Position numbers and translations under genes: made by a program. A stretch of 64,000 nucleotides of DNA from Bacteroidota bacterium (GTDB taxonomy: Bacteria > Bacteroidota > Bacteroidia > Bacteroidales > FEN-979), in assembly GCA_026391715.1 (NCBI GenBank), contig JAPLDO010000032.1:62001-126000 (forward strand), written 5' to 3'. Numbering within the stretch: the stretch's first letter is position 1; each line of letters opens with the position of its first letter. This document shows, in pieces, positions 58,828 through 62,650 of this stretch. The notes below the pieces were generated by a model. The model did no database searches and had not been told where the DNA came from. It saw only the letters and a program-made list of their open reading frames with translations.

Positions 58828-60267
58828 ATGACAACATCCGCAATTATACTCACAGCTTTTTTCATCATTTCGGCGCTGACGGGATTGGCTGTTGGCTTGG
58901 TAAAATCGAAGCCCCTGATTCGTGCCCTGACCATCTTTTACACAATCGTTCATATCTCATTCTCCTGCTTTGGCTGGCTGCATCAGGGCGAAACCGTACT
59001 CGAATATTTTACCTTCGATCCGCTGGGGCTGCTTTTACTCTCAATCCTTTCAATCCTCACAATTACAACGGTCTATCATGGATTTATCTATGTAAAAAAT
59101 GACTCTCCCGGCGTTTATTCCATGTACCATGCCGCTTTGATTGCGCTGATTGCCTCGATGTCGGGCGCTTACCTTGCGAATGGGATGACAACTGTGTGGA
59201 TTTTTGTTGAAGCAACTACCCTTGCCGTAGCCGCGTTGATCTACCACGACCGCACCTCGCTCGCGCTTGAGGCAACCTGGAAGTATGTTTTCGTCTGTTC
59301 CATTGGGATCGCGCTTGCATACCTCGGCATCCTGTTCCTTGGCTTTACTGTGCAGGACGCCCGTTTGCTTCACCTATCCTTTGACGCCATAACCGAAATC
59401 GCCAGGCTTGCCAATCCGCTATATCTGAAAATTGCCTTCATATTTATCCTCGTCGGTTACAGTACCAAGATGGGATTATTCCCAATGCATACCGTTACCG
59501 TTGACGCCCATACTGTGGCGCCGCCGCCTATCAGCGCTTTCATCTCAACTACTTTAATGAATGTGGGTTTTCTCGCTATTTTTCGCATTTATGTATTGTT
59601 TTCGGCTACTGCCATCCTGCCTTTCATGAATCATGTTCTGATCATTTCCGGCGTACTTTCACTCGTTGTTTCAGCCGGTTATATGCTCAAGGCAAAGCAC
59701 AACAAGCGCATGCTGGCATATTCGAGTCTCGAAAATATGGGTATTGTCGCTATCGCTCTCGGTATTGGCGGTATCGGATATTATGCGGCTATCCTCCATA
59801 TCGTATTACATTCATTCACCAAAGCCGGTTTGTTTTATCAGATCGGACAATCATACAAAGTAATGGGTACATACCAACTGGATGAGTCGGGAAATTATAT
59901 GAATCTCTACCCGGCGGGAGCTACTGCCCTGCTACTTGGTTTTCTCTGTATTACCGCCATTCCACCTTCGGGGATGTTCATTTCAGAATTGTATGTGATG
60001 AAGGCGCTCGTTTTGACAAATTCCTGGTGGTTGCTTGCCGTATTCGCACTGTTGCTTTGCTTTGTGTTGTACGCTCTGGTAACCCGCGTGTTGCACATCG
60101 TGTATTCACAACCCCGCGAGAAACCACTGCACGAGTTGCAAAAGATTAATCCGTGGCAAACAGTTACACAATATATACTTTTCGGTATGGTCATTTTTAT
60201 CTGTTTTGCACAACCGTCGCCATTCCGCGAACTCATCAATTCAATTATTCAGTCGCTTCCAAAATGA
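58828..60267 (+). CDS. hyfF: HyfF-like proton-translocating membrane subunit
   Basis: 479 residues, about 13-14 membrane helices, second antiporter-type subunit of the complex. Channel motifs are kept: WIFVEATTLAVAALIYHDR with the membrane glutamate, YSTKMGLFPMHTVTVDAHT, APPPISAFISTTLMNVGFLA, KAKHNKRMLAYSSLENMG, and HIVLHSFTKAGLFYQIGQ. These carry the lysine/histidine relay typical of NuoL/M/N-like pumps. Its start is 42 bases after the AbiEii stop, so its original junction with the HyfE gene has been split by 4.5 kb. Its stop overlaps the next ATG (60264-60267). Confidence 0.92.
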   Translation: MTTSAIILTAFFIISALTGLAVGLVKSKPLIRALTIFYTIVHISFSCFGWLHQGETVLEYFTFDPLGLLLLSILSILTITTVYHGFIYVKNDSPGVYSMYHAALIALIASMSGAYLANGMTTVWIFVEATTLAVAALIYHDRTSLALEATWKYVFVCSIGIALAYLGILFLGFTVQDARLLHLSFDAITEIARLANPLYLKIAFIFILVGYSTKMGLFPMHTVTVDAHTVAPPPISAFISTTLMNVGFLAIFRIYVLFSATAILPFMNHVLIISGVLSLVVSAGYMLKAKHNKRMLAYSSLENMGIVAIALGIGGIGYYAAILHIVLHSFTKAGLFYQIGQSYKVMGTYQLDESGNYMNLYPAGATALLLGFLCITAIPPSGMFISELYVMKALVLTNSWWLLAVFALLLCFVLYALVTRVLHIVYSQPREKPLHELQKINPWQTVTQYILFGMVIFICFAQPSPFRELINSIIQSLPK

Positions 60268-61787
60268 TGACTAACAACCTTTTTACCGAAATTTTTACAA
60301 ATCCGGCTACCATACCGCTCGCTGATATCCCAACGCTTGATTATCCTGAATTTTCAGCATTTATTGATCTTCTGATGGGGGAAGAAGGAACCCACTGTCT
60401 GACATATTTCGTTCTGCCTCAACCAGAAAAATACAAATTTATCTGCTGCATGGCTGCCGATGAAAATCATGCTATCGTTTTAATTTCCCATGAACATCCA
60501 CGTGAACCCTTACCTTCATTGCCATCACTTTCAGCAAACCATTTTCAGTTTCACCTGTTTGAAAGGGAAATCCATGAGAATTTCGGGATTGAATTTCCCG
60601 GACATCCCTGGATGAAACCCATCCGCTATTCCTTCAACCGCGCCAACCTTTCTTCGGTGATGAATAACTATCCCTTTTATTCCATCGAAGGGGAGGCGCT
60701 GCATGAAGTTGGCGTTGGACCAATACATGCCGGAATTATCGAACCGGGTTACTTCCGGTTTATATGTCATGGCGAGCATGTTCATCACCTCGAAATTCAC
60801 CTTGGATATCAGCATCGAGGCGTGGAACAGTTGTTCCTCGCCAAACCGCAGCTACTGCAACAATCTGTTTTGGCTGAAACCATTGCCGGAGATACCGCAG
60901 TCGGTCATTCGCTTGCCTTTGCCGGATTGGTTGAATCTCTTGCAGAAATTGACATGCCGGCTTCTCTGCATCGGGAGCGAATCATTGCCCTCGAACTTGA
61001 ACGTATTGCCATCCATATCGGCGACACGGCAGCCATTTGCACCGATATTGCCTATCAATTCGGACAGGTTGTTTGTGAAGCGCTCCGAACCATTGTGATA
61101 AATACTACCCAGTTGTGGTGCGGAAACCGTTTTGGCAAAGGAATGGTCCGCCCTGGCGGAACCAATTATCCGCTTACTGCAACGGTTATTAGTGCGATAC
61201 TTGAAAATCTCCGCGATGTTGAAGAACGGTATTCCCAGATTACCGAACGGATTTTTTCCCTTCCCAGCGTTTTGGGACGTTTTGAGGGCGTCGGAAAAGT
61301 AACTACCATGCAGGCTTCGCTTGCAGGGGCAGTTGGCATGGCGGCGCGGAGTTCGGGGATGTATCGCGATATTCGCTGGTCGCACCCCTTTGCCGCATAT
61401 ATTGATCAACCTTATGAACCTGTGATGATTCCTCATGGCGATGTGTGGTCGCGGGTTATGTTGCGAAAGATGGAGGTGGACCGGTCGGTTGCTGTTATCC
61501 GGAAAATGGTCGAATTGGTAAACGAACATGATAATATTTCAAGCCCCGACTATAATTTGAATTTCAAGCCCGCTTCGCTGGCGATTTCACTGGCAGAAGG
61601 CTGGCGTGGAGAAATATGTCATGCCGCCATAACCGATGAAACCGGTAAAATCATCCTTTACAAAGTGAAAGACCCATCGTTCCATAACTGGATGGCTCTT
61701 GCCCTCGCAGTAAGATACCAGGAAATTTCCGATTTTCCGCTGTGCAATAAGAGCTTTAATCTGAGTTATTGCGGAAATGATCTTTAG
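60264..61787 (+). CDS. Hydrogenase-like large subunit (NuoC-NuoD/HycE type) without Ni-Fe cysteines
   Basis: 507 residues from the ATG at 60264, which overlaps the HyfF stop; the longer upstream frame only antisense-overlaps or duplicates HyfF coding and is rejected. The N-terminal part (about 30-125) is the NuoC/30-kDa-like domain (FHLFEREIHENFGIEFPGHP). The rest is the large-subunit domain (EVGVGPIHAGIIEPGYFRF, HHLEIHLGYQHRGVEQLF). In active group-4 hydrogenases two CxxC pairs bind Ni-Fe. Here the first site reads ETIAGDTAVGHSLAFA (205-220), without cysteine. The C-terminal site reads CNKSFNLSYCGNDL (494-507) instead of DPCxxC. It therefore cannot carry a standard Ni-Fe centre. Similar cysteine-free proteins are known from energy-converting-hydrogenase-related (Ehr) complexes. 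Role unresolved. Confidence 0.9.
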   Translation: MMTNNLFTEIFTNPATIPLADIPTLDYPEFSAFIDLLMGEEGTHCLTYFVLPQPEKYKFICCMAADENHAIVLISHEHPREPLPSLPSLSANHFQFHLFEREIHENFGIEFPGHPWMKPIRYSFNRANLSSVMNNYPFYSIEGEALHEVGVGPIHAGIIEPGYFRFICHGEHVHHLEIHLGYQHRGVEQLFLAKPQLLQQSVLAETIAGDTAVGHSLAFAGLVESLAEIDMPASLHRERIIALELERIAIHIGDTAAICTDIAYQFGQVVCEALRTIVINTTQLWCGNRFGKGMVRPGGTNYPLTATVISAILENLRDVEERYSQITERIFSLPSVLGRFEGVGKVTTMQASLAGAVGMAARSSGMYRDIRWSHPFAAYIDQPYEPVMIPHGDVWSRVMLRKMEVDRSVAVIRKMVELVNEHDNISSPDYNLNFKPASLAISLAEGWRGEICHAAITDETGKIILYKVKDPSFHNWMALALAVRYQEISDFPLCNKSFNLSYCGNDL

Positions 61788-61820
61788 GTAGCAAGGCGGC
61801 AAGGATTCAAGCGTTTACTG

Positions 61821-61837
61821 CCATCCCGCTGGGGTGG
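61821..61837. repeat. Short intergenic hairpin
   Basis: A 7-base-pair stem (CCATCCC / GGGGTGG, one G-T pair) with a GCT loop lies between the large- and small-subunit genes. There is no T run. It may balance expression of the two genes or belong to a dispersed repeat. Confidence 0.5.
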
Positions 61838-61894
61838 AATTAAAATGTGATAACGGAAAACGAACAATTTAAACAATAACCCAAAAAGCGATGC

Positions 61895-62650
61895 ATGCCA
61901 GTTAAAGAATTCAACATCTTCCGCCGCCACGGGCGCCAATATGTACCCGATCTGCGTAATGTCACCCTCCCGGAAATCTTCCGAGGCAGACCGGTTATCA
62001 GCCCCGATATCACTCGCAAAGAAGCAGAACAGGCATTAAGCCTTTGCCCGGTTGGCGCCATCGGAACCGCTCCATGCACTATTGATTTGGGAAAATGTGT
62101 TTTCTGTAAGGAGTGCGAATTTGCCATTCCCGGAAGAATCAGATTTACAAATGATCATAAAATAGCAACAAACCATCGCGAAGGTTTAATTATCATTCAG
62201 GGCGACGACAAACCGGTTAAAATTGATTCCGGATTTGTGCGTAAGGAAATTCCTGCATTATTCAAACACGCGCTGAAACTACGTCAGGTTTCGGCTGGCG
62301 GCGATAATTCGGCTGAAATGGAACTGAATGCCGCCGGGAATGTCAATTTCGATATGGGGCGTTTCGGAATTGAATTTGTCGCCTCGCCGCGTCATGCCGA
62401 TGGAATCGTCATCACCGGACCGATAACCGAAAATATGGCAGAAGCGCTTCAGATATGCTACGACGCTATACCATCGCCTAAAATTATTATCCTCGCAGGC
62501 GCCGACGCCATCAGTGGAGGTATTTTCAGTCAAAGTAAAGCGCTTCAACGAAAATTCCTTGATAAATACCCGGTTGATTTATACGTTCCCGGCAACCCGC
62601 CTCACCCGTTGACTTTCATCAATGGATTGCTTGATTTGACCGGTCGGTAA
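61895..62650 (+). CDS. Ferredoxin-NuoB-like small subunit lacking the proximal cluster ligands
   Basis: 251 residues fusing a ferredoxin-like domain (about 35-85) to a NuoB/HycG-like 20-kDa domain (about 125-250). The ferredoxin part has C51 (LCPVGAI) and C68, C71, C74 (CVFCKEC), enough for one 4Fe-4S cluster in the 2x[4Fe-4S] fold; the second cluster's ligands are missing apart from C61. The NuoB-like part keeps the fold signature (DMGRFGIEFVASPRHADGIV, TGPITENMAEAL, PVDLYVPG), but all four cluster-ligand positions are changed: D137 and A140 in the GGDNSAE segment, D204 in GADAISGG, and N234 in VPGNPPHP. A canonical proximal/N2-type cluster is therefore not possible. Last gene of the operon, 107 bases after the large subunit. 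Confidence 0.88.
   Translation: MPVKEFNIFRRHGRQYVPDLRNVTLPEIFRGRPVISPDITRKEAEQALSLCPVGAIGTAPCTIDLGKCVFCKECEFAIPGRIRFTNDHKIATNHREGLIIIQGDDKPVKIDSGFVRKEIPALFKHALKLRQVSAGGDNSAEMELNAAGNVNFDMGRFGIEFVASPRHADGIVITGPITENMAEALQICYDAIPSPKIIILAGADAISGGIFSQSKALQRKFLDKYPVDLYVPGNPPHPLTFINGLLDLTGR

Follow-up and report, generated by a model that had tools for sequence, protein, structure and literature searches.

Ehr complexes are defined by large and small subunits that resemble those of group 4 hydrogenases but lack the ligands to the Ni-Fe centre, together with membrane subunits of the Mrp/Nuo type (PMC6349859). A complex with both these features is encoded in the stretch of Bacteroidota DNA described here (the window: the whole 64,000 nucleotides analysed, positions 62,001 to 126,000 of contig JAPLDO010000032.1 in assembly GCA_026391715.1), and in this conserved six-subunit member of the Ehr branch the electron wire itself appears to have been dismantled, with the proximal (N2) cluster and the distal ferredoxin (N6a) cluster both gone. 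The two Ni-Fe CxxC motifs and the proximal 4Fe-4S ligands of a group 4 [NiFe]-hydrogenase are missing from it. Formate hydrogenlyase-1 and hydrogenase 4 (Hyc/Hyf, PDB 7Z0S) are like the window complex in subunit folds and membrane subunits, but have a Ni-Fe site and proximal and ferredoxin-type clusters where it has one cluster set only, and it has no formate dehydrogenase and no HycB-type subunits. The sulfane reductase MBS/Mbx (PDB 6U8Y) is a group 4 relative that lost the Ni-Fe site and is coupled to an Mrp-type arm; it carries three 4Fe-4S clusters, the proximal one of which is held by three cysteines and acts as the catalyst, and two leftover Ni-Fe cysteines (PMC7684303). In the window complex this catalyst-type proximal cluster cannot form. 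Mrp cation/proton antiporters share the antiporter-like subunits with their conserved transmembrane Glu/Lys path and transport ions without redox chemistry, but have neither a peripheral arm nor a NuoH/HyfC-type subunit, whereas the window complex has HyfC, large and small subunits and no MrpA-G set.

Complex I has in common with the window complex the 49-kDa and PSST folds, the HRGxE motif and an equivalent of H251 near N2. It differs in that the window operon holds no genes for an NADH or other input module (NuoEFG or equivalent) and no N2, and the position of the quinone-binding tyrosine is G209 in the window large subunit. Complex I needs N2 for quinone reduction, since mutants without it (R121M, PDB 7B0N) assemble but are inactive (PMC8042128). 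The fold of that mutant thus survives without N2, and what is an engineered state there is, in the window clade, a natural, fixed and repeated loss of N2 and N6a together. Among the open-access papers searched, which leave out most subscription journals, none describes a relative of complex I that lacks N2 by nature, and none reports a Bacteroidetes Ehr, a pseudo-hydrogenase or an Ehr with NuoB.

The subunits of the peripheral arm and the sites that matter within them are as follows.

60264..61787, + strand: large subunit, NuoC+NuoD/HycE-like and of Ehr type, 507 residues (Pfam PF00346 and PF00329)
60876..60908, + strand: former first Ni-Fe ligand site, ETIAGDTAVGH (residues 205-215), by HMMER alignment with the corresponding motif in HycE and MbhL
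61743..61775, + strand: former second Ni-Fe ligand site, CNKSFNLSYCG (residues 494-504), by HMMER alignment with HycE SLDPCYSC
61895..62650, + strand: small subunit, a NuoI-like ferredoxin domain fused to a NuoB/HycG-like domain, 251 residues (Pfam PF01058, E 3e-20)
62045..62116, + strand: C51, C68, C71 and C74, a full cysteine set for one 4Fe-4S cluster (N6b-type), by comparison with relatives holding both ferredoxin-type clusters
62303..62314, + strand: D137 and A140 replacing the first two N2 cysteines (codons starting at 62303 and 62312), by alignment with HycG and MbhJ
62504..62506, + strand: D204 replacing the third N2 cysteine, by the same alignment
62594..62596, + strand: N234 replacing the fourth N2 cysteine, by the same alignment

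A scan of GTDB genomes gave 268 relatives, the best 80 of which, nearly all from metagenome-assembled genomes (MAGs) of Bacteroidales, were fetched, and conservation was counted over 80 large and 70 distinct small subunits, those of the window included. In the small subunit GGD(137)NSA(140)E, GAD(204)AISGG and PGN(234)PPHP align without gaps with GGCNGCE, GACGNSGG and PGCPPTP of HycG, and likewise with MbhJ, so that the replacement of all four N2 cysteines claimed in an earlier note made from the sequence alone is borne out; a complete N2 set is found in none of the 70 small subunits. D137 and N234 are present in 70 of 70, position 204 is D in 63 of the 70 (A in 6, N in 1) and position 140 is C in 42, A in 16 and another residue in 12. 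The N6a ligands, still present in relatives with both clusters, are gone too, a loss the earlier note had not recorded, and C51, C68, C71 and C74 are kept in 70 of 70. Checks against HycE, HycG, MbhJ and complex I by alignment agree on these losses.

In 2[4Fe-4S] ferredoxins the fourth cysteine of motif 1 and the first three of motif 2 ligate one cluster. The cluster ligated in the pattern of C51, C68, C71 and C74 in NuoI we take, from the Thermus structure, to be N6b, the middle one. The order of clusters in complex I is N5-N6a-N6b-N2, and electron tunnelling usually requires 14 Å or less (PMC11677225). With N6a and N2 both absent from an N6a-N6b-N2 chain, the remaining cluster therefore has no redox neighbour on either side, and by distances in homologues it would lie beyond electron-transfer range of the pocket. 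It had been considered that an arginine contacting N2 (R141 in Yarrowia, T206 here by alignment) was lost through loss of N2, but most N2-bearing relatives already have Ser or Thr there and Arg persists in both other N2-less lineages, so this idea was dropped.

In the large subunit no cysteine stands at either Ni-Fe ligand pair, just as had been read from the letters: alignment with HycE, MbhL and HyfG puts A208, T211, S501 and G504 in the HyfG/HycE ligand columns, and C494 and C503 fall outside these in the HyfG column alignment. The Ehr pocket signature (H155, G209, D210, H251, D369, R371, N495-K496-S497 and S501-Y502-x-G504-x-D506-L507) does not vary across the N2-less clade and hardly varies in N2-bearing Ehr; G209 and D210 are invariant in the 80 relatives, and the motif NKSFxLSYxGxDL is common to cluster-bearing Ehr relatives. 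As the signature is kept with or without N2, the role of the pocket would be independent of N2. AlphaFold models predict that the two subunits retain the HycE and HycG folds, the large one (predicted local distance difference test score, pLDDT, 87) matching HycE of formate hydrogenlyase with Z 38.8 and a root-mean-square deviation (rmsd) of 2.9 over 489 residues, and the small one (pLDDT 89) matching HycG with Z 18.2 and rmsd 1.7 over 133 residues.

Ehr copies in Variovorax sp. PBL-E5 (L085) and in other Bacteroidota (L109, L112-L116) have six genes in the same order as the window complex and share with it GD(T/S) and NKSFxLSYxGxDL, the want of Ni-Fe cysteines and the fused ferredoxin-NuoB small subunit. 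They keep N6a, N6b and N2, whereas the window complex keeps N6b only and so has no intact Fe-S chain. Two distinct Ehr operons (6713-13997 and 17409-24593), 3.4 kb apart, lie on the plasmid of Variovorax PBL-E5, the small subunit being a fused ferredoxin-NuoB in one and NuoB alone in the other.

To follow the loss, about 80 further relatives were added from other Bacteroidota, from the phylum of genome G001 and from plasmids of Pseudomonadota, Actinomycetota and Deinococcota, giving a cluster inventory of about 150, in which five of the N2-less entries (L095-L099) repeat loci that are counted elsewhere in it. N6a and N2 are both retained in 38 relatives (all three clusters being kept in Variovorax_E1, L109, L112-L116, L120-L127 and others), N6a is gone with N2 retained in 17 (N6a alone lost in L110, L111, L129-L140 and others), N6a is partial with N2 retained in 5, and both are gone in 78, to which 4 N2-less relatives with a stray N6a cysteine may be added; loss of N2 with N6a retained occurs in none of the roughly 150. 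The N2-less state is found in the window clade, in a Mycobacterium branderi plasmid copy (L088) and in an Allomeiothermus copy (L086), each of the last two lineages being one plasmid locus. In large-subunit trees the window groups with Ni-Fe-less relatives from Rhizobium, Cupriavidus, Variovorax and others, apart from E. coli HyfG (the tree includes no Geobacter Ehr reference), and the N2-less clade stands beside L109 and L168-L170, which retain all three clusters. On these trees N2 must have changed three times and N6a about nine times. Three rows are on long branches and their exact placement is unsure, but the Mycobacterium copy branches with Burkholderia copies that retain N2. The approximately unbiased (AU) test rejects a single origin, in which every N2-less row would fall into one clade (p 8e-58), and also a clade of the window group with Allomeiothermus (AU p 2e-7). 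Judged from these trees, loss of N2 has arisen at least three times, and each time together with loss of N6a.

Whereas the wire has gone, the residues of the membrane arm are intact, as the earlier note had seen for the HyfB-, HyfC- and HyfF-like subunits. HyfB has E152, K231, K262, K308, H351, K359 and E414, the same as E. coli HyfB and invariant or nearly so in relatives (all but K308 being invariant). HyfF has E128, K214, K293, K332 and E387, with K214, K332 and E387 invariant and E128 and K293 kept in 97-99%, and HyfC has E124, E132, E183, E197 and E203, the last four invariant. Among the fetched loci, to which this survey was confined, 12 N2-less ones have a second, tandem hyfB (L042, L044, L047, L049-L051, L056, L060, L062, L063, L065 and L069); the two copies in each are about 44% identical and retain all key residues save for one K308M, and they bring the antiporter-like subunits to three, the number in complex I. 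With its key residues kept in a second hyfB, the ion arm would therefore have expanded in complexes that have no electron wire.

The membrane genes of the window complex lie upstream of the large subunit.

50659..52680, + strand: hyfB-like, antiporter-like subunit, 673 residues (Pfam PF00361, E 9e-53; best NCBIfam match hydrogenase 4 subunit B)
52677..53666, + strand: hyfC-like, NuoH-like anchor subunit, 329 residues (Pfam PF00146, E 5e-24; conservation)
53667..54284, + strand: hyfE-like, MrpC/NuoK-type subunit, 205 residues (NCBIfam PRK11492, hydrogenase 4 membrane subunit E, 8e-12)
58828..60267, + strand: hyfF-like, second antiporter-like subunit, 479 residues (Pfam PF00361, E 4e-42; conservation)

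The order is thus hyfB-C-E-F-large-small with all six genes intact, the large subunit starting at an ATG that overlaps the hyfF stop. A RhuM/AbiE cassette at 54466-58785 (two RhuM-family genes and an AbiEi-like/AbiEii pair) separates hyfE from hyfF, a gap of 69-205 bp in close relatives, and the operon is split in this way in the window's genome only; this insert, too, had gone unmentioned before.

At the 80 loci the recurring genes are hyfB, C, E, F, large and small only, and within the fetched flanks, many of them short, no gene for a redox or ATP-using partner recurs beside the N2-less operons. Cluster-bearing relatives are different, many Ehr copies having an HTH-EIIA regulator gene or a SulP neighbour that the window clade does not have. 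A helix-turn-helix (HTH)-PTS EIIA (PtsN-like) gene adjoins hyfB in 17 of the 27 cluster-bearing Bacteroidota loci read (loci with such a gene: L182, L183, L184, L188-L190, L193, L195-L205) and was found in the fetched flanks of none of the 80 N2-less loci. A SulP-type anion transporter stands beside cluster-bearing operons in seven loci (L181, L206 and L207; L184, L202, L204 and L205), and in L109's relatives, the sister clade of the window's group, the order hyf operon, SulP, outer-membrane-barrel-like protein is seen in three of three. The neighbourhood of L181 also holds KdpA and a KdpB-like P-type ATPase, and on plasmids from Mycobacterium, Alicyclobacillus and Burkholderia (L088, L089, L092, L103) the surroundings of Ehr-type genes include DUF190 (PII-like) genes and, twice, CrcB. 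These neighbours hint at a link of the whole Ehr branch to ion homeostasis, though the N2-less operons are without them. Elsewhere in the window's genome there are further 49-kDa/NuoB-like genes (contigs C59 and C157) and genes for HypD and a standard Ni-Fe hydrogenase large subunit (C154 and C225), and so an argument from missing Ni-Fe maturation was discarded.

Ligand losses, their conservation, their repeated origin and the intact ion-path residues are established by the alignments and trees, which also support the earlier view of an Ehr-like complex that has one 4Fe-4S cluster left and passes no electrons to the place where the active site once was. As N2 is needed by complex I and the proximal cluster is the catalyst in MBS, neither mechanism would be open to the window complex, and it would be neither an oxidoreductase nor a redox-driven pump. 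Selection still acts on the ion arm, on the pocket and on a single isolated cluster, and hence we favour, at about an even chance of being right, an Ehr-branch complex turned redox-silent, which would transport ions in the manner of Mrp and be regulated by its peripheral arm. In line with this, the operon has no ATP or redox module that could supply the energy a primary pump requires. With less certainty, the complex may exchange protons for cations as a secondary, Mrp-like transporter, or may be a gated conduit; the peripheral arm might set its opening through a ligand in the former Ni-Fe/quinone pocket. The gated ion channel suggested in the earlier note is compatible with the data, and a secondary Mrp-like exchanger seems to fit equally. 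The lone 4Fe-4S cluster may be structural, or possibly a redox- or oxygen-sensing element in gating. Several points weigh against this account: a partner protein encoded elsewhere could carry electrons near the pocket, the presence of the lone cluster is inferred from its four cysteines and its sensing role is a guess, and the distances between cluster and pocket are taken from homologues and not from an assembly model of the window complex.

The strongest rival, although we think it rather unlikely, is an oxidoreductase with new wiring, in which electrons come from an unlinked partner docked on the arm or from a quinol inside the pocket, the lone cluster being only a leftover or an entry point. 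The 17 relatives that lost N6a and retained N2 suggest that a new partner can feed electrons in at N6b, and the strict retention of the pocket signature also speaks for this rival. Without N2, however, a single hop no longer takes an electron from N6b to the pocket, complex I deprived of N2 is inactive (PMC8042128), and no conserved redox gene adjoins the operon in the 80 loci. An improbable reading is that the complex pumps ions as a primary pump, with the turnover of a ligand or some other reaction without redox chemistry in the pocket as its driving force (hydration, decarboxylation or the binding and release of a charged ligand, for example). In its favour, pocket and pump have both stayed strictly conserved although the wire has gone, and cluster-bearing relatives have SulP, porin-like protein, KdpAB and PtsN-like neighbours. 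The pocket is, however, the same in relatives with all clusters, which gives no sign of a new catalytic site, and the N2-less operons have none of these neighbours; that a machine of the complex I superfamily should draw its pumping energy from ligand chemistry of a non-redox kind in the former Ni-Fe/quinone pocket, with pocket and pump coupled without electrons, is quite improbable.

A cryptic cofactor at the proximal site, with D137, residue 140, D204 and N234 binding a metal or an unusually ligated Fe-S cluster, is highly doubtful. The invariance of D137 and N234, the cysteine at 140 in 42 of 70 and the D at 204 in 63 of 70 would suit it, and the third cysteine has become acidic independently in Mycobacterium (D) and Allomeiothermus (E). 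Against this, 140 also takes A, T, G, N and V and 204 takes A and N, the window has no cysteine at any of the four positions, the other N2-less lineages carry NDDA and TDES with no common ligand set, and Cys-to-Asp/Ser exchanges also remain at the lost N7 site of ovine complex I (PMC8357420). A metal site of these four residues was rejected for this inconsistency across relatives, and use of another cofactor, which the earlier note had offered, finds no positive support, only D137 and N234 being invariant among the four and the pocket signature being identical in relatives with all clusters. That this is a decaying pseudo-complex without function is scarcely conceivable: cofactor ligands have been lost repeatedly and the window operon is interrupted, but the ratio of non-synonymous to synonymous substitution (dN/dS) is 0.03-0.13 over eight pairs of relatives (dS saturated in several), an alignment of 48 large subunits has over 90 columns without variation, none of the six genes is broken, the complex occurs in 31 of 119 genomes of the window's own order and frameshifts or relaxed selection are not seen in most relatives, so that by these measures the six-gene complex is under strong purifying selection.

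On at least three occasions evolution has done away with N2 and with its feeding cluster, and has retained the pocket and all known ion-path residues. If the complex does transport ions, the coupling between pocket and membrane arm would be open to study free of redox chemistry; failing that, a new explanation would be needed for the conserved pump residues. Genes in MAGs that bear the label 'NADH-quinone oxidoreductase' or 'hydrogenase 4' should accordingly not be taken as a sign of respiration or of H2 evolution.

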